From: an uncultured Lachnospiraceae bacterium
Lineage (GTDB): Bacteria > Bacillota > Clostridia > Lachnospirales > Lachnospiraceae
NCBI GenBank assembly: GCA_905235745.1
Contig: CAJOMN010000008.1
Coordinates: forward strand, 1-64,000
DNA: 64,000 nucleotides
Direction of reading: 5' to 3'
The notes beneath the pieces were generated by a model that did not search any database, was not told the DNA's origin, and was given only the letters and a program-made list of their open reading frames with translations. Below, piece after piece: positions 15,322-23,289 of this stretch (its first letter is position 1; every line of letters begins with the position of its first letter). The position numbers and the translations under genes were made by a program.

Positions 15322-15657
15322 CTAAACTGCCACGATTATCACTCCGAGTATGACAAGCGCCATTCCCGCAAGCTTCTGCGGTGATACTTTTTCCTTGAGG
15401 ATCAGTCCTCCCAATACCGTAACAAACACGTAGCCGCTTGATTCAAGCATGGCGCCCAGTGACAGCGGGATAACCTTATAACAGTATACCGTTATAAGAG
15501 TTGCAAGAAAAAAGATTGCATACGCCGTCACTACTCTTATATTCAGATACTCATATATCCATGACCTGTATTGTTTCCTTGCGGCAAGCTTCAACAGTAT
15601 CTGCGAAAATGCCGATATGAGAGATGCCGACAGGAATATGATTATATAGCCTGTCAT
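15322..15657 (-). CDS. Small EamA/SMR-type membrane protein (ArnE/F-like)
   Basis: The product of 111 residues has four membrane segments and the EamA/SMR C-terminal pattern SSGYVFVTVLGGLILKEKVS. Its length equals that of ArnE, half of the ArnE/ArnF pair that flips undecaprenyl-phosphate-aminoarabinose. It overlaps the GT2 gene by 4 bases, and a second such protein (20663-21049) lies in the same cluster. I infer that the two form a heterodimeric flippase for the polyprenyl-linked sugar made here. A drug-efflux SMR role is less likely in this context. Confidence 0.8.
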   Translation of the reverse strand: MTGYIIIFLSASLISAFSQILLKLAARKQYRSWIYEYLNIRVVTAYAIFFLATLITVYCYKVIPLSLGAMLESSGYVFVTVLGGLILKEKVSPQKLAGMALVILGVIIVAV

Positions 15658-16592
15658 CCGTCCTTACTCCCCGGCTCTTTAACCTCGTCCACTATATACA
15701 CCGGTCTGTTACGTGTTGCGTCAAGTGTCCTCCACAGATACTCTCCAAGTACCCCGAGCGTCAGCAGTATCACTCCTGTCGAAAACAATACAAGGCACAT
15801 AAGGGTCGACCAGCCGCGCACGGGCGTTCCGGTATTGATATATTCGATAATGACCCCGATTATCCATATGAAAGCACAAACAGCCATGACCACGCCCATT
15901 CCGGACATAAACCTTATCGGAAAATAGGAAAAGCTCATCATTGAATCGGCTGCAAGCTTAAACTTCTTGGAGAAGGTCCAGCGGGATTTGCCGACCTCGC
16001 GATCCTTCCTGTGAAAGTACACATTTGCCGATCTGAATCCTATCCACAGCACCTGCAGGGACAGGGATGAATTCTTCTCATCAAGCCGCATCAGTACTTC
16101 TATCGCCTGACGGTCAAGAAGGTAACAATCAAAACCTCCCTTCGGCATTTTGCTGTCTATCGTCCTGCGTACAATGGAATAATACAGGTTGGCAAAGAAT
16201 TTCTTGACCGCCGGATCATCCCTTTCCTCTCTGACGGCAAGGACAACCTTATTCCCTTCTTTCCACTTATCGTACATCCTGACGATCAGCTCCGAATCCT
16301 CCTGCAGATCGGCCTGTTTCGTCACTGCGCAGTCGCCCGTGCATTGCGACAGCCCGGCAAGTATCGCGGCATGCTCTCCGAAATTCCGCGACAGTCTCAC
16401 AAGCTTAACGTTATCATCAAGCTCCCTGATACTGTTCATGACAGCCCAGGAATCGTCTCCCGAACCGTCATCGACCATTACGATCTCATAATCCCCGATA
16501 TCACCAAGGATCTTGGCTTTCATATCCTCATACAGAAGCATCAGCGTGTCTGAATTGTAGTAGACAGGGATTATGATCGAAATCTTGCTCAT
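15654..16592 (-). CDS. Polyprenyl-phosphate glycosyltransferase, GT2
   Basis: A 312-residue DPM1/GtrB/ArnC-like enzyme that would move a sugar from a nucleotide donor to polyprenyl phosphate. The N-terminal GT-A domain has ISIIIPVYYNS, MVDDGSGDDS and RLSRNFGEHAAIL. The usual DxD before DLQ reads KQADLQ, so the first Asp is replaced by Gln; ArnC-type proteins also vary here. RKDREVGKSRWTFSKKFKLA and two C-terminal membrane helices complete the family architecture. It lies between the ThDP enzyme and the SMR protein, with gaps of 4 and -4 bases. Confidence 0.9.
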   Translation of the reverse strand: MSKISIIIPVYYNSDTLMLLYEDMKAKILGDIGDYEIVMVDDGSGDDSWAVMNSIRELDDNVKLVRLSRNFGEHAAILAGLSQCTGDCAVTKQADLQEDSELIVRMYDKWKEGNKVVLAVREERDDPAVKKFFANLYYSIVRRTIDSKMPKGGFDCYLLDRQAIEVLMRLDEKNSSLSLQVLWIGFRSANVYFHRKDREVGKSRWTFSKKFKLAADSMMSFSYFPIRFMSGMGVVMAVCAFIWIIGVIIEYINTGTPVRGWSTLMCLVLFSTGVILLTLGVLGEYLWRTLDATRNRPVYIVDEVKEPGSKDG

Positions 16593-16596
16593 AGTA

Positions 16597-18429
16597 TTAT
16601 CCTCTCAGATACTCTTTGACTGAATCATATTCCTCTTTCGGAAGGAACGGGAACATATCATCATTAGCGGCAGAAGTGATCGTACCGTCCTCATGTACTT
16701 TCGAAGAAAGCTTCGGTTCAAAGTTCTGCTTATCATCAACCACGGCTTCGATCATAACAGGACCGGCGCTATCGATCGCTTCCGTAATGCGCGTCGCAAG
16801 GTTATCCTCACTGTCTATACGGACATACGGCAGATCGAACGCATATGCCACCTTCTCAAAATCCGGAAATGATATTCCGTTGCCGTCACATACACCGATA
16901 AGCGGTCTTGAAGAGAACAGATTCTGCTGCGTCTGCCTGATCGAATGATAACCATTGTTATTTAATATTATGATCTTAATATTAAGGTTGTTGTATTTTA
17001 CCGTCTGGAGCTCCTGGATATTCATCATAAAGCTTCCGTCTCCGTCTACGCATATGACACGATCCGATGCGGTATTCCCCCTCTCCATATCGCGCCTTCT
17101 GGCCGTGGCAGCGCCCACGGCAGCCGGAAAACCGTATCCCATGGCGGCGCATCCGGAATTGGTAAACAGTCTCTGGTTCTTCTTGATGACAGCAGTCTGG
17201 AAGCCTATCACGCATGCTCCCCCGTTACCGCAGACGGTAACATCGCCCTCCTGAAGGCACTTATGGAGCGTCTCATAGAATACGTACGGGTTCAGCTTTG
17301 GCGTATTATGATAGCCTTCACATACGGCAGGATATCTCGCATCAACATTCCTTGCCCTCTCGAGCCAGTTCCTGTGTGCATCCTTGTCATATGCGCCTTC
17401 ACGCTCCACATACTCACAGATATCCTTCATCACGTCCTTCACATCGGCGCATACGGGCATATCAACATTAACGGTTGGCTTACGAAGCTCCGCCTCATCT
17501 ATATCAACAACGATCTTATAAGCATCCTTTGCAAATTCGTGCTTATTGTAGCTTATCATTCTGATGTTCATCCTGCATCCGAGGACGAGGAGAAGATCTG
17601 CGGACTGGACGATAAAATTACCTCCCCGAAGTCCGACCGTTCCCGGCTTTCCGCAAAAGAGCGGATGATCCGTCGGGATCAGGTCGTGCGCATTCCACGC
17701 CGTAACCACCGGTATCCCGAGCGCTTCGGCACACTTTATGAACTCATCCCTCGCATCTGCTGCATTGATTCCCGTTCCGGCAAGGATAACGGGCCTTGCC
17801 GACTCATTGATCTTGTCTATGATACGTGCGGTCTGCGACGTATCATACATGACCATACTGTCTTCATCGGGGGTATACCCTTGAAGTTCTTCGGGATCTA
17901 CCATCGCAGCCTGGACATCAAGCGGTATATCAAGCCATACGGGACCCGGGCGCCCGCTTTGGCACAGATGCCACGCTTTTTCAAGATGATACCTTATCGT
18001 GCCGGCGTCCGTTACCATGACTGCGTACTTCGTCATGTTACTGACGCATTCCGTGATCTGGTATTCCTGATCCCCGAGCTGGCGGAGCGGAACATCGGTC
18101 GAAGCTGTCGTCGTCTCAAACTTCACCTGTCCCGAGACAACAAACACCGGTATCGAATCCTGCCACGCGCCCAATACTCCGGTGATCGCATTGGTGCCTC
18201 CCGGACCGCTTGTTACATATACCGGCGCGACCCTTCCGGTAAGCCTTGTATATCCTTCCGCCGCAATGGCGCATGCCTGCTCATGATGATTGTAAGTGCA
18301 TCTGATCCTGTCGTTATGACCTATCGCATCATCAAGGTGCATGGCACCTCCGCCCGTTACGATAAAAACATCGCTGACCCCGTGATCTGCGAAAAAATCC
18401 GCTATATATTCCGATACTTTTACCTTCAT
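16597..18429 (-). CDS. Thiamine-diphosphate enzyme, acetolactate-synthase-like
   Basis: At 610 residues the protein has the three-domain ThDP fold: the activating Glu in NHHEQACAIAAEGY near the start, the middle nucleotide-binding domain, and the ThDP/Mg motif GDGSFMMN...LNNNGYHS. It resembles acetolactate synthase but there is no IlvN partner or branched-chain amino-acid gene nearby. YerE, a flavoenzyme of this fold, adds an acetyl unit to a keto-sugar, and related enzymes occur in surface-polysaccharide loci. I infer decarboxylation of pyruvate or another 2-oxo acid and transfer to a sugar or aldehyde. Confidence 0.85.
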   Translation of the reverse strand: MKVKVSEYIADFFADHGVSDVFIVTGGGAMHLDDAIGHNDRIRCTYNHHEQACAIAAEGYTRLTGRVAPVYVTSGPGGTNAITGVLGAWQDSIPVFVVSGQVKFETTTASTDVPLRQLGDQEYQITECVSNMTKYAVMVTDAGTIRYHLEKAWHLCQSGRPGPVWLDIPLDVQAAMVDPEELQGYTPDEDSMVMYDTSQTARIIDKINESARPVILAGTGINAADARDEFIKCAEALGIPVVTAWNAHDLIPTDHPLFCGKPGTVGLRGGNFIVQSADLLLVLGCRMNIRMISYNKHEFAKDAYKIVVDIDEAELRKPTVNVDMPVCADVKDVMKDICEYVEREGAYDKDAHRNWLERARNVDARYPAVCEGYHNTPKLNPYVFYETLHKCLQEGDVTVCGNGGACVIGFQTAVIKKNQRLFTNSGCAAMGYGFPAAVGAATARRRDMERGNTASDRVICVDGDGSFMMNIQELQTVKYNNLNIKIIILNNNGYHSIRQTQQNLFSSRPLIGVCDGNGISFPDFEKVAYAFDLPYVRIDSEDNLATRITEAIDSAGPVMIEAVVDDKQNFEPKLSSKVHEDGTITSAANDDMFPFLPKEEYDSVKEYLRG

Positions 18430-19076
18430 AATAATATTCCCGCTATATCTTCCGGTCTTGCTGCCGCTCCGATATTATCATATTCATCAACGTCTCCTGC
18501 CGATGCGAAACCGAATCCGTATGTGACCCCTATAAAGCATACGCCTATCTCCCCGGCTCCTATCGCATCATTGTCGCTGTCGCCGACCATTACTGCTCTG
18601 TATCTGTCATCCGCACCGAGAGCCTTTAATGCGTTCTCTATTATATCCTTCTTGGTAAGCAGTCCCTCCGGATCCGATCCGCACATCACACGAAAGACTT
18701 TGTCAAATCCGAAATGCTCCAGTATCCTGTCGGCATAATCCTGCCTTTTGTATGTCGCAACACCGGTCCTGATGCCGGCCGCATTAAGCTTTTCTATAGT
18801 TTCGATGATACCGTCATACGGTCTGGCAAGAAGAACGTCTTTATCCTTATATCTGTCGCGAAACAGTCCCGCCGCCCGGTTTGCCTCATCGTTATCCATG
18901 CCGTATACCCTTGCGAACGAGCGTTGTATGGGAGGCCCTATGAACGTGCGCATTACATCGTCGCCCGGCCGCTCAAGATTAAGCGTATCGATAACATAAC
19001 CAAGCGAACGGTATATCCCCTCGGACGTATCCAGAAGTGTTCCGTCCAGATCAAATACTACCGCATCATATCTCAT
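18426..19076 (-). CDS. HAD-family phosphatase, Gph-like
   Basis: A 216-residue HAD hydrolase with DLDGTLLDTSEG (nucleophile Asp), the helical cap, TYKRQ, KKD and MVGDSDNDAIGA. The cap type is that of phosphoglycolate/5'-nucleotide phosphatases. It overlaps the aldolase gene by 11 bases and the ThDP gene by 4, so its substrate is probably an intermediate of this cluster. Confidence 0.85.
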   Translation of the reverse strand: MRYDAVVFDLDGTLLDTSEGIYRSLGYVIDTLNLERPGDDVMRTFIGPPIQRSFARVYGMDNDEANRAAGLFRDRYKDKDVLLARPYDGIIETIEKLNAAGIRTGVATYKRQDYADRILEHFGFDKVFRVMCGSDPEGLLTKKDIIENALKALGADDRYRAVMVGDSDNDAIGAGEIGVCFIGVTYGFGFASAGDVDEYDNIGAAARPEDIAGILL

Positions 19077-20670
19077 ATATACTCTCCGTTACAAATACCG
19101 GCGGACTTGCAAGACCCAGTTTCCTGATCCCTTTTACCGTATCGTTGTTGATGTTGTCCGCCTCCTCCATGCTGTATGAATACTCCATGTTCGGGTTGAC
19201 GTAATTGGATACGGACGTTTCCCTGTATCCGTCAAATCCGGCAAGCGCGATAGACGATACTTCCGCCTCCTTCAGCAGTTTCAGCAGCATGATGAGCGGA
19301 TTATCCGGCATTAGCGCATCTTCATCAAGCAATTCGCCGTAATTAAGAGTATAATCAAATTCTCCGAGCGTTCTCGTGATATTGGAAGTAGCTATAAGCT
19401 TTGATTTTTCCTTCTGTTCGTTGAGTGCGGAGCACAGCTGGACATAACGCTTGGCATTGCTCATGAATACATAATCTGTCTCATAGCCTTCCGGTATGAA
19501 ATTGATCGATATCGTAACGCACCGGTTCCGGGAAAGATATGTGTCCACACGGTCTCTTTGTTCGTATATGTTTTTGCCGGGTCCCATGACGAGAATATCA
19601 GCACCCTTGAGGGAAGTCATCAATTCACCGACCGAATCGGAATTCCTGCATTGCTGCTTCTGATACTCAAAATACAGCTCCCTTATATAATCCTTATCAT
19701 ACAGAAGCTTCTTCTCTCCCTCAAGCGAATCAAGTATTTCGCTTATCGATCTGACCGACAGTTTCCCGATATCCATCAGGTAATTGACATAGTTGGGATG
19801 ACAGTCGTGCGATGCGGCAAGGAAGAATTTGAATGAATATCCCCAGTCAACCTTGCGTTTGATATCAAGCATGGTTACCTCTATCGCTTCAAGTATCTGG
19901 CTGTTATGATATCCCGTGCCGTGATATGAATTCATGTGCATGACAAGAAGCTCGATCGGCGTATTGCCGGCGCTCTTTCCCATTCCGTAGAGCGTGCCGT
20001 CGACTATGAGCGTGCGGTCTGTCGGAGGATCGTCGAGTAGCTCGATACAGTTTGCGTATGCAAGCTGGAAATTGTTGTGGGCGTGATATCCTATCCCTAT
20101 CGACGGTTTTAAATGTGCGCATGCGAAGTCAAAATAATGCCGCAGCTGCCCCTTATGAAGCAGCCCGTATGTATCAACGAGCGAAAAAGCATACGGCTCA
20201 AGGTCGTTGACAAGCCCGATAAGCTCCGACAGTTCATCATCGTTATAGCTTGTTATCGATACGGCCTGGGCAAAGACCTTGTATCCTTTTTCCTTGACAG
20301 CACGGCAAAAATCAATAGCCTCGTGCATCTTTTGTTTCTTAAAGATCACCCTGATCCCGTCAAGGCAGCACCTGTCGGCGGGCATAATATTACCGATGGG
20401 ACATGTTCCGTAATCTATCATACCGACGATCATGGAGCTTCCCTTGTCGAGTCTGCCGTAGATAATGTTTGCGGATGCGGTATCTGGAAAGATCGTCCTG
20501 TTTTCGTCAAATTCCCTCCTGCTGTCTATAAATCCGGTCTCGATTATATCGATCCCGGCACTCACAAGCCTCTCGAATATATTGACGATATTGCTCTTTC
20601 CGAATTCCCAGTCGTTAAGATATCCGCCGTCTCTTAAAGTACAGTCCAGGAGCTTGATCTCATTATTCAT
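19066..20670 (-). CDS. HMGL-type aldolase with an extra C-terminal domain
   Basis: Residues 1 to about 290 form a DRE-TIM barrel: LLDCTLRDGGYLNDWEF holds the metal-binding Asp, and GYHAHNNFQLA the metal His pair. It is closest to 4-hydroxy-2-oxovalerate-aldolase-type enzymes. Residues about 340-534 form a second domain with ILVMGPGKNI and YVFMSNAKRY, which looks like a Rossmann-type fold I cannot name. The start is the ATG at 20670, nine bases after GGGGAGG; the upstream ATG at 20679 touches that sequence. The reaction is probably formation or cleavage of a C-C bond with pyruvate. Confidence 0.8.
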   Translation of the reverse strand: MNNEIKLLDCTLRDGGYLNDWEFGKSNIVNIFERLVSAGIDIIETGFIDSRREFDENRTIFPDTASANIIYGRLDKGSSMIVGMIDYGTCPIGNIMPADRCCLDGIRVIFKKQKMHEAIDFCRAVKEKGYKVFAQAVSITSYNDDELSELIGLVNDLEPYAFSLVDTYGLLHKGQLRHYFDFACAHLKPSIGIGYHAHNNFQLAYANCIELLDDPPTDRTLIVDGTLYGMGKSAGNTPIELLVMHMNSYHGTGYHNSQILEAIEVTMLDIKRKVDWGYSFKFFLAASHDCHPNYVNYLMDIGKLSVRSISEILDSLEGEKKLLYDKDYIRELYFEYQKQQCRNSDSVGELMTSLKGADILVMGPGKNIYEQRDRVDTYLSRNRCVTISINFIPEGYETDYVFMSNAKRYVQLCSALNEQKEKSKLIATSNITRTLGEFDYTLNYGELLDEDALMPDNPLIMLLKLLKEAEVSSIALAGFDGYRETSVSNYVNPNMEYSYSMEEADNINNDTVKGIRKLGLASPPVFVTESIYEI

Positions 20671-21049
20671 TTGTCGCATCCTCCCCGGACGGCGGCAATT
20701 CCTGATCCTTATCCGCAGTCACGATCAGAACTATTCCGCCTATTATGATGATGGCGCCTGTTATCTTCCTCATTGTGATCTCTTCGGAAAAGATAAAGTA
20801 TCCCCACAATATTCCCCATATGACCGTTACTCCTTTGTTGGCGTATGCGGTTATAAGGGGCATATGCCTTATGATCTGCTGCCACACAAACGCATAGATA
20901 AACAGACCCGTAAGAGACAGCCCGTAGAACATCACGAATCGCGGGGACAGGAATTCCTCGCCCGCCGCATACTTGGATGCCACCCCGGTAAGTGAATACA
21001 CCCCGAGCAGTATATGAAGAATGATCATGTATTTAAATTCCGATTTCAT
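20663..21049 (-). CDS. Second small EamA/SMR-type membrane protein
   Basis: The product of 128 residues has four hydrophobic segments and the EamA/SMR C-terminal part VIWGILWGYFIFSEEITMRK, followed by a short acidic tail. It is the likely partner of the 111-residue SMR protein at 15322-15657, as ArnF is of ArnE. It overlaps the HAD gene by 17 bases and the aldolase gene by 8. The flippase role is inferred from context. Confidence 0.78.
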   Translation of the reverse strand: MKSEFKYMIILHILLGVYSLTGVASKYAAGEEFLSPRFVMFYGLSLTGLFIYAFVWQQIIRHMPLITAYANKGVTVIWGILWGYFIFSEEITMRKITGAIIIIGGIVLIVTADKDQELPPSGEDATNE

Positions 21050-21677
21050 CGTAATTCCTTTTTCTGACCCTGCGGTCGAGTATCAGGCAGTCGACTCCGG
21101 CTGCCCTGGCGCACTGCCCGTCCTTCTCATCGCGGTCGCCGATCATAAGCATATCTCCGGGCGATACGCCGTAGTCCTGCATTATGAGATACAGTCCCTT
21201 AGGGGACGGCTTCAGTTCGTCTATACGCTCATCTTCCGGTCCGTACTTACCGTCAACCTCAATATCAAGTGCCTTAAGCTTATCCTCCGACGGATAGTCC
21301 GACAGCACGACAACCTTCCTTCCGTCCCGGCGGATCTTACGTATACGCCCGGCAAGGTATTCATCGCGTGCCCCGCGAAGTGCCGTAAGGGGATTGTCAT
21401 ATATCCATCTGTTCACTATTCCGGCAACTGCTTCCGGAGTTGTTCCTTTATCCTCTGCAACCTTTTCGTATATTGCAGTATCCGATGCATTATTCGTCCA
21501 CTCATCCCTTATCTGCCTGAAGTGCTGCAGTATGATAAGCTCCCGGATCCGAAGCGGATGGCGGATATAATATGACAGGAGACGCATTGCCATGGTCAGC
21601 CGGAGCTTTGGCTGATCATAGAGCGTCCCGTCAAGATCGAATACATATAGAATGTATGCGTGATCTGTTCTCATCAT
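21033..21677 (-). CDS. HAD-family phosphatase next to UbiA
   Basis: The product of 214 residues has FDLDGTLYDQP, a cap of about 90 residues, VLSDYPSEDK, KPSPKG and MIGDRDEKDG, the four HAD motifs. It overlaps the UbiA gene by 4 bases. In many bacteria a HAD domain is fused to or adjoins a DPPR-synthase-like UbiA, so removal of the 5-phosphate from a polyprenyl-phosphate-phosphopentose is a sensible prediction. The start is ATG at 21677 or the next ATG at 21674. Confidence 0.83.
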   Translation of the reverse strand: MMRTDHAYILYVFDLDGTLYDQPKLRLTMAMRLLSYYIRHPLRIRELIILQHFRQIRDEWTNNASDTAIYEKVAEDKGTTPEAVAGIVNRWIYDNPLTALRGARDEYLAGRIRKIRRDGRKVVVLSDYPSEDKLKALDIEVDGKYGPEDERIDELKPSPKGLYLIMQDYGVSPGDMLMIGDRDEKDGQCARAAGVDCLILDRRVRKRNYDEIGI

Positions 21678-22612
21678 TTCACATATTTGATATCAAACAA
21701 TGTAGGATACGACCAGTATTCCGGCATCGGAAGATCGATCACGGTCAGCAGGAACAGTACTATTATAAGAGCCGTAATATACAACAGCAGTGATTTTTCC
21801 TTGTACAGCTTCTCAGGCTTCTGAACGGCGGAATCCGGCTTGAACGCAATGTACAGATAGAAGCAGAACAATCCGAATAACAGCGGCATCGCCAGTATAT
21901 ACTCCATCCTGTATTTGATCATAAATATGCCGATGAAGAATGTTGCGCACATCGCATAGAAGAATGAAGAGATAAGAAGGCTTGTCTCGGAATAATGCGC
22001 AAAGCTCTTTCTGTAGTGACCCGCGACATCGGGATCCCCGATCATCCTGTACTCCGCGAACCGCTTCGTTGCCATAAGAAATGCCCCTGCAAACCAGTAA
22101 CCGATAAGTATACTGCTGGGCGGCTGATACTCGGATGTTATTATAAACCAGCCCAGAAGGAGCCTTATCATGTTGTTGATCGATTCCGACAGGACATCGA
22201 GATAAGGTATATCCTTGGTCCGGAAAGGTTTGACATTGTACAGAACCCCCATTATCAGGAGCCAGATCTCCATATATGCAAAGATATTGCTTACGGCAAA
22301 TGAAAGAAGCAGACCCAGTACGATCAGAAGAACGTACTCAATGAGCACATATGACAGCTTCATATTCTCCGATACTACCGGTCTGTTCTTTTTGGTCGGA
22401 TGATATTTATCGAAATCTGCGTCAAGCCATTCATTGATAACATAATTGGCGGATGCGATAAAGCATGTGGCCGCAAATCCGATGATAAACTTTACTATGA
22501 CATCGTAGGAAAAGGAAAAATCCGTAAGGAGCATGGCGATCGCCACTCCCGGGATAATGAATGCATTCTTGACCCAGTGGTCCGGCCGCGCTATCTTGAT
22601 ATAATTCTTCAT
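21674..22612 (-). CDS. UbiA prenyltransferase, DPPR-synthase-like
   Basis: A 312-residue membrane enzyme with about nine helices. Motif I reads NEWLDADFDKYHPTKKNRPV, whose H-P-x-K-x-x-R-P end is characteristic of decaprenyl-phosphate phosphoribosyltransferase (Rv3806c) rather than quinone-forming UbiA; the second aspartate motif is in YLDVLSESINNM. Such enzymes join PRPP to polyprenyl phosphate. The gene overlaps rpe upstream and a HAD phosphatase downstream by 4 bases each. The first Asp of the usual NDxxD is Glu here. I infer synthesis of a polyprenyl-phosphate-linked phosphopentose. Confidence 0.85.
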   Translation of the reverse strand: MKNYIKIARPDHWVKNAFIIPGVAIAMLLTDFSFSYDVIVKFIIGFAATCFIASANYVINEWLDADFDKYHPTKKNRPVVSENMKLSYVLIEYVLLIVLGLLLSFAVSNIFAYMEIWLLIMGVLYNVKPFRTKDIPYLDVLSESINNMIRLLLGWFIITSEYQPPSSILIGYWFAGAFLMATKRFAEYRMIGDPDVAGHYRKSFAHYSETSLLISSFFYAMCATFFIGIFMIKYRMEYILAMPLLFGLFCFYLYIAFKPDSAVQKPEKLYKEKSLLLYITALIIVLFLLTVIDLPMPEYWSYPTLFDIKYVK

Positions 22613-23289
22613 GATGATACTCTCCCGCTGCAGTTATACTTTTTGAATAGTTCCGAAAAATACCGGGTATTCCCGGTGATATCTCCCTTAAATATCGACG
22701 AGCCCATCACTATAACATTGGCGCCTGCCGACAAAACCTCTTCGACATTATCTCTTGTGATCCCGCCGTCAACCTGAATGTCCGTATCAAGTCCGTTTTC
22801 ATCAAGGCTTTCCCGCAATGCTTTTATCTTTCCGGTACATACATCCATGTATTTCTGACCGCCGAACCCCGGCTCCACGGTCATTACAAGGAACATATCC
22901 GCAAGAGCATAGTACGGCCGAAGGACGTCTATATCCGTTCCCGGCTTAATTGCGATCCCCGCCCTTGCTCCGAGGGAATGGATGTGTTCTATCGTTTCCT
23001 TAAGAGGAGCACAGGCTTCCTGATGCACCGTCAGAATGTCGGCTCCCGCTCTTACAAATTTGTCAACATAGCGCTCCGGCTGTTCGACCATCAGATGTAC
23101 ATCAAGTGTTTTGGATGTAAACCTTCTGACAGACTTCAGTACCGGCAGTCCGAATGATATGTTGGGAACGAACATTCCGTCCATTACGTCGAAATGAAAG
23201 TAATCGTTACCTCCTTCCTCCGCCTGCTTCATCTGCTCGCCGAGCACCGTAAAATCCGAAGCAAGTATTGAAGGTGCAAGAATAACCAT
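22609..23289 (-). CDS. rpe: Ribulose-phosphate 3-epimerase
   Basis: A TIM-barrel enzyme of 226 residues that interconverts ribulose-5-P and xylulose-5-P. Typical segments are APSILASDF, HFDVMDGMFVPNISFG, HLMVEQPERY and QVDGGITRDN. It follows rsgA by two bases, as in many Firmicutes, and overlaps the UbiA gene, so pentose metabolism and the polyprenyl-sugar genes share a transcript. Confidence 0.96.
   Translation of the reverse strand: MVILAPSILASDFTVLGEQMKQAEEGGNDYFHFDVMDGMFVPNISFGLPVLKSVRRFTSKTLDVHLMVEQPERYVDKFVRAGADILTVHQEACAPLKETIEHIHSLGARAGIAIKPGTDIDVLRPYYALADMFLVMTVEPGFGGQKYMDVCTGKIKALRESLDENGLDTDIQVDGGITRDNVEEVLSAGANVIVMGSSIFKGDITGNTRYFSELFKKYNCSGRVSS

Follow-up and report, generated by a model that had tools for sequence, protein, structure and literature searches.

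Two groups of described pathways are close to the locus examined here. Kelly et al. (2024; PMC11127046) described a widespread pathway consisting of a polyprenyl phosphoribose synthase, a HAD-family phosphatase, a flippase and a GT-C enzyme. The second group comprises the YerE/ErwE pathways for yersiniose, erwiniose and caryophyllose, in which a thiamine diphosphate (ThDP)-dependent carboligase acts; YerE itself uses pyruvate, ErwE prefers 4-hydroxy-2-oxo acids (reviewed in PMC12247030), and JanthE has been described as a YerE-like carboligase (PMC12188165). We analyzed a block of eight genes at positions 15322 to 22612 of a 64,000-nucleotide stretch of DNA (the window) from an uncultured rumen/gut Lachnospiraceae bacterium. 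The window lies on contig C8 of a 2.5-Mb genome with a completeness of 99.46%, and this genome was searched gene by gene. An earlier note had proposed that the block encodes one lipid-linked pentose pathway; this view was only partly supported, and an aldolase, a phosphatase and a ThDP enzyme form a separable set. The reading that we favor, with a probability of roughly 0.55, is that one module would make a lipid-linked pentose, while the aldolase, the phosphatase and the ThDP enzyme would build a branched cytidine diphosphate (CDP)-sugar together with rfb genes located elsewhere in the genome.

All eight open reading frames are on the minus strand and occur in the order UbiA, HAD1, SMR1, HMGL, HAD2, ThDP, GT2 and SMR2. 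The earlier note had described the genes as overlapping, which is true of neighbors throughout the block (by 4 to 17 bases) except for ThDP and GT2, which are separated by a gap of 4 bases. Its family assignments also held, although both SMR calls (EamA/ArnE-like small proteins) were weak, with scores below cut-off. The same eight genes were found in the same order after prkC-rsgA-rpe in four Lachnospiraceae metagenome-assembled genomes (MAGs; loci L032, L033, L034 and L035), and the first six were present after prkC-rsgA-rpe in a fifth relative (L031), where the contig then ends. The genes are conserved together in close relatives, a point in favor of the proposal in the earlier note. Protein families, conservation, separability of the modules and co-occurrence and linkage of the rfb genes were determined by sequence and comparison.

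The HMGL gene (19066..20679; 537 amino acids [aa]; PF00682, 5.3e-23) encodes a DRE-TIM barrel (residues ∼8 to 340) followed by a C-terminal sialyltransferase/MptE-like domain (∼345 to 537). The conserved Arg-Asp and His-x-His residues of the barrel (R16, D17, H199 and H201) were invariant in 30 aligned rows. A model of the full protein superposed on 3dxi (Z 31.1) and on 1nvm (Z 29.4 over 325 residues), and by this modeled fold the barrel is of the 4-hydroxy-2-oxovalerate aldolase type, although the cut-off of the corresponding equivalog model, TIGR03217, was missed (62 versus 286 bits). When modeled alone, the C-terminal domain reached a confidence (pLDDT) of 89.8 and matched HPPK/MptE, SteA and sialyltransferase folds with Z scores of 12.5 to 8, the next fold scoring 4.6. 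Among 36 HMGL proteins examined, whose loci were selected for their likeness to the window protein and lack independence, 19 had a ThDP enzyme within 4.5 kb, 15 others had a Kdo/NeuA-type cytidylyltransferase and the remaining 2 had an ATP-grasp protein; several of the loci also carried a KdsC-type phosphatase. The ThDP and cytidylyltransferase neighbors suggest that the predicted product of the aldolase is a 3-deoxy-2-ulosonate. HAD2 (18426..19076; 216 aa; PF13419, 2.2e-32), which usually adjoins HMGL/ThDP within the HMGL clade of the window, is a predicted phosphatase of this product.

Several variants of this arrangement were observed. The C-terminal domain (19069-19659 of the window, minus strand) was retained whether HMGL was linked to a cytidylyltransferase or to a ThDP enzyme. 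An AroB-related putative sugar phosphate cyclase replaced HAD2 between HMGL and ThDP in L041:2245-6890 (where it matched TIGR04425) and L044:9986-14531, which may represent a possible carbocyclic variant. In L076:2675-6172 and L077:8960-13323, HMGL-HAD2 was followed by an ATP-grasp domain and a short-chain dehydrogenase/reductase (SDR) with no ThDP enzyme nearby, an arrangement that would point to another use of the aldolase product. A plasmid search with the HMGL protein yielded three matches. Two were uninformative (Priestia without sugar context and Niallia without annotation), and the third, on a Desulfobaculum plasmid from another phylum (NZ_CP090010.1; L153:3843-8011), carried an uninterrupted series of rfbH, split transketolase and single-domain HMGL genes.

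The ThDP enzyme (16597..18429; 610 aa) has three TPP domains of the acetolactate synthase type and is a predicted YerE/ErwE-like carboligase. Its best match in the PDB was JanthE (8rph; 372 bits), compared to 235 bits for the best acetolactate synthase, and it scored below the acetolactate synthase cut-offs listed (349 versus 538 bits for TIGR00118). A housekeeping acetolactate synthase was rejected on the basis of these missed curated cut-offs and of an association with RfbH, an enzyme of CDP-4-keto-3,6-dideoxyhexose formation. Among 295 sampled genomes of the order, in which the ThDP protein was counted at an E value of ≤1e-90, RfbH was present in 35 of 38 genomes with the ThDP protein and in 18 of 257 without it (Fisher P = 1.3e-28, a value that overstates the independent evidence because related genomes share ancestry). 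RfbH was within 10 kb at 20 of 39 ThDP places, such proximity thus being frequent in the family but not general. A plasmid search with the ThDP protein gave three distant matches only, and an attempt to locate the hot-spot residues of JanthE in the window protein was dropped because of a numbering mismatch.

Among the relatives of the ThDP enzyme that track with RfbH, many lack an HMGL neighbor, and YerE uses pyruvate; the window enzyme might likewise use pyruvate alone and attach a yersiniose-like two-carbon branch, with the HMGL product serving elsewhere. HMGL linkage requires at least seven changes in the ThDP tree, which indicated that partners have been exchanged. In the clade of the window, however, all 12 rows were HMGL-linked, and the HMGL-ThDP-HAD2 operons of L040 and L043 had no other adjoining sugar gene. 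We consider use of pyruvate alone unlikely.

Linkage of the aldolase and the ThDP enzyme to rfb genes was direct at other loci. A contiguous chain of rfbF-rfbG-rfbH-HMGL-ThDP-HAD2-SDR was found in L089, and the genes rfbF-rfbH-ThDP-HMGL-SDR-GT2 and rfbF-rfbH-HMGL-cyclase-ThDP-SDR-SDR-GT2 occurred in a row in L083 and L041, respectively. The earlier note had remarked on the absence of a nucleotide-sugar dehydratase, and this is true of the block, but the genome has rfbF, rfbG and rfbH at other loci, and all three of these genes for CDP-3,6-dideoxy-4-ketohexose passed equivalog cut-offs. The genes rfbF, SDR and rfbH lie at C1:352085-355344, and the same set was present in genomes G295, G296 and G299; in G296, an additional gene separates rfbF from SDR. 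The rfbG gene, one further gene, a GT2 gene and a PMT_2-like GT-C gene follow groEL at C16:28605-33100. Four further genomes (G295, G296, G297 and G299) also had rfbG; GT2 and GT-C lay close to it in all of these but G297, in which only the GT-C was seen before the contig end. The two loci are thus kept in most of the relatives that carry the block. The C16 GT2 and its orthologues were 62 to 73% identical to the GT2 proteins of L036, L038, L039, L083 and L110, the genes of which adjoin HMGL/ThDP/SDR or rfb genes.

These loci also bear on another role for the ThDP enzyme, namely, that it only decarboxylates the ulosonate to a free 2-deoxy aldose, which, once activated, would be loaded by the window GT2. 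Enzymes of this class begin with a decarboxylation half-reaction and GT2 is directly downstream of ThDP, but the block has no nucleotidyltransferase, and at several other loci the ThDP/HMGL pair is found together with SDR and rfb genes. We regard decarboxylation alone as a slightly poorer candidate than the use of pyruvate alone.

In our proposal for the two modules, every reaction, substrate and product is inferred. For the branched CDP-sugar, HMGL would condense pyruvate with a phosphorylated aldehyde to give a 3-deoxy-2-ulosonate phosphate, from which HAD2 would remove the phosphate. The hydroxylated 2-keto acid thus formed would be decarboxylated by the ThDP enzyme, which would add the acyl anion to CDP-3,6-dideoxy-4-ketohexose at its 4-keto group. 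This acceptor would be supplied by RfbF, RfbG and RfbH from the two other loci, and the SDR encoded beside rfbF and rfbH would reduce the new ketone. The C16 GT2 encoded beside rfbG would then transfer the branched CDP-sugar to polyprenyl phosphate, and the sugar would be moved to the surface for use by the GT-C partner. The predicted product is a branched sugar of the erwiniose/caryophyllose type. The preference of ErwE for 4-hydroxy-2-oxo acids fits this proposal, since an aldolase of the 4-hydroxy-2-oxovalerate type makes that kind of acid. Caryophyllose is a 4-C-(1-hydroxyethyl) branched trideoxy-decose. By analogy, its carbon pattern would be as expected of such a ThDP reaction.

The earlier note had envisaged that the aldolase and the ThDP enzyme modify the polyprenyl-linked pentose before flipping. 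The contiguity of the eight genes, their conservation in relatives and the absence of a nucleotide-sugar gene from the block itself are consistent with a single pathway of this kind. However, HMGL and ThDP, usually with HAD2, were found without a nearby UbiA gene in L036-L044, in small operons in L040, L042 and L043 and in surface-polysaccharide-type clusters in others. Conversely, UbiA relatives with 56 to 65% identity occurred in seven sampled genomes, and in five of their neighborhoods that were read there was no adjoining HMGL gene, but a membrane protein adjoined (two DUF6044 and one PMT_2-like). UbiA of this type thus occurs without HMGL/ThDP and beside GT-C-like genes, while the closest solved relative of the ThDP enzyme is JanthE and its family tracks with RfbH. 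A single lipid-linked pentose pathway was rejected on the grounds of this separability, and only a small chance is left to it. The block is, on this comparison of loci, composed of two separable modules, UbiA-HAD1-SMR1 and HMGL-HAD2-ThDP, plus a generic polyprenyl-phosphate GT2, and the best explanation is that both modules serve cell-surface glycosylation.

UbiA (21674..22612; 312 aa; PF01040, 2.9e-24) is a predicted polyprenyl-phosphate phosphoribosyltransferase. The likeness to decaprenyl-phosphate phosphoribosyltransferase (DPPRS) proposed in the earlier note found some support, in that the best NCBIfam model was that of this enzyme and DPPRS 8j8j was the only PDB sequence match, although the model score of 95 bits was well below the 234-bit cut-off, so that phosphoribosyl pyrophosphate is an inferred donor. 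In an eight-row alignment, D64, D68, H71-P72, K74, R77-P78, K183-R184 and E187 were invariant, and with them the residues of the HPxKxxRP and KRxxE motifs, which they make up in part. That UbiA might instead prenylate a quinone or another aromatic compound, a reading with UbiA superfamily membership as its sole argument, was rejected as very improbable because DPPRS gave the best models and the only PDB sequence match, aromatic prenyltransferase models scored far lower and the neighbors of UbiA are phosphatase, SMR and GT-C-like genes.

A candidate phosphatase and a candidate flippase component lie directly downstream of UbiA, in support of the earlier note, and are kept there in L031-L035. 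HAD1 (21033..21677; 214 aa; PF00702, 1.9e-13) is a predicted phosphatase of polyprenyl-phosphate-ribose-5-phosphate, and SMR1 (20663..21049; 128 aa) is one half of a predicted ArnE/ArnF-type lipid-sugar flippase (ArnE model, 5.3e-07; EamA, 1.8e-05; both below cut-off). A UbiA-HAD-SMR-SMR order was also present in L072, where the HAD protein is of another subfamily, and in G116 a bona fide DPPRS-type UbiA stands between a GtrII-like GT-C and a HAD phosphatase, with two SMR-like genes next in the row. In its predicted components, the set of UbiA, HAD1 and SMR1 plus SMR2 is akin to the three-component pentofuranose systems already published. The UbiA/phosphatase/flippase part of the block is therefore not new in kind, and the term "undescribed" used in the earlier note does not apply to this part. 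DUF6044 membrane proteins directly adjoin 64% identical UbiA relatives (L064:6945-8726 and L065:9418-11178); this proximity makes DUF6044 a possible family of GT-C enzymes that use polyprenyl-linked pentoses.

The window GT2 (15654..16592; 312 aa) is a PgfS/ArnC-like polyprenyl-phosphate glycosyltransferase (PgfS model, 8.2e-64; ArnC, 7.3e-47; both below cut-off), and SMR2 (15322..15657; 111 aa) is a second ArnE/ArnF-type half (ArnE model, 1.1e-07, below cut-off). Together they look like a further polyprenyl-phosphate-sugar route. A membrane protein of ∼600 residues is encoded 3' of SMR2 in L032 (15322-17091), L034 (15258-17132) and L035 (15361-17163), and these proteins are probable GT-C enzymes, although the one in L035 had no Pfam or NCBIfam match. 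In L033, a YfhO-type gene follows SMR2. At the other end of the block, UbiA overlaps by 4 bases the ribulose-phosphate 3-epimerase gene rpe (22609..23289, minus strand; TIGR01163, above cut-off), which is a housekeeping neighbor outside the proposed pathway. This overlap suggests that the eight-gene set may be part of the prkC-rsgA-rpe transcription unit; promoter and terminator scans gave counts no different from those of shuffled sequences.

Several observations weigh against the two-module proposal. The rfb genes are unlinked to the block, the RfbH nearest to the window ThDP enzyme being on another contig, and RfbH is missing from three genomes with the ThDP protein (G160, G221 and G241). 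G298 (L034) has all eight genes, but no close match to rfbG, rfbH or SDR was found there, and its contig runs on past groEL without the rfbG that usually follows. IMPDH was likewise not detected in this MAG, which may mean no more than that locus C1 was not assembled. Neither rfbH nor SDR was found in G297, where the contig of that neighborhood ends first and both genes may have been lost to the contig end. The window GT2 is only 24 to 26% identical to the GT2 group encoded beside SDR/rfb genes and does not belong to that branched-sugar group. The window lacks the GT-C gene that follows SMR2 in the relatives, and a search of its own genome with the L035 protein yielded no homologue. The UbiA score falls well short of the DPPRS cut-off. 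Finally, the genome has a second set at C1:373482-385629 (L105 and L106), comprising rfbG, rfbF, rfbH and SDR as well as one more dehydratase and a ThDP protein of the YerE-like kind (38% identical to that of the window), with no HMGL gene, and the rfb genes could partly serve this second cluster.

The literature searched, with subscription journals mostly outside its coverage, yielded no account of HMGL aldolases acting in a sugar pathway of this kind. As a tentative and rather doubtful generalization, HMGL aldolases fused to a sialyltransferase/MptE-like domain could be an alternative source of 3-deoxy-2-ulosonic acids throughout the order. They would feed one of two routes, in which either Kdo/NeuA-type cytidylyltransferases give cytidine monophosphate-ulosonates or carboligases of the YerE/ErwE type build branched CDP-sugars of higher carbon number. 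Here, the latter sugars would be loaded on polyprenyl phosphate by a pathway split over three loci. If the two-module proposal is right, the block would provide a candidate enzyme for the hydroxylated keto-acid donors preferred by ErwE-type carboligases and would extend branched-sugar chemistry to rumen and gut Lachnospiraceae. An HMGL gene beside a ThDP or Kdo/NeuA-type cytidylyltransferase gene would then be a rule for predicting unusual surface sugars from genomes.

The block was also compared with known systems. No DprE1 or DprE2 of the mycobacterial decaprenyl-phosphoryl-arabinose pathway was found among the eight genes, the rest of the genome not having been searched for this epimerase. 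With 4-hydroxy-2-oxovalerate aldolase (DmpG/HOA), HMGL shares the DRE-TIM barrel, the conserved Arg-Asp and His-x-His residues and the superposition on 1nvm, but the block has no aldehyde dehydrogenase partner, and HMGL has an extra C-terminal domain and sugar-gene neighbors. The CsbB/GtcA/YfhO multicomponent transmembrane glycosylation of Gram-positive cell-wall polymers (PMC8035078) likewise uses a GT2, a small flippase and a GT-C, to which the YfhO-type gene of L033 corresponds, whereas the flippase here is SMR/EamA-like instead of GtrA type and the window has no GT-C. The three-component pentofuranose systems of Citrobacter youngae O1/O2 (PMC11127046) have a UbiA-type polyprenyl phosphoribose synthase, a HAD-family phosphatase, a flippase and a GT-C. 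In contrast, the phosphatase here is a separate gene, two SMR-like halves take the place of a MATE flippase, UbiA is of a diverged branch, and the window has no GT-C and the block no epimerase. With the YerE/ErwE pathways, the genome shares a YerE-like ThDP carboligase, the rfb genes and an SDR candidate for ketoreduction. It differs from them in the pairing of the carboligase with two enzymes, an HMGL aldolase and a phosphatase, by which the donor acid could be made, in the spread of the genes over three loci, in a polyprenyl-phosphate GT2 with a GT-C partner and in its Bacillota host.

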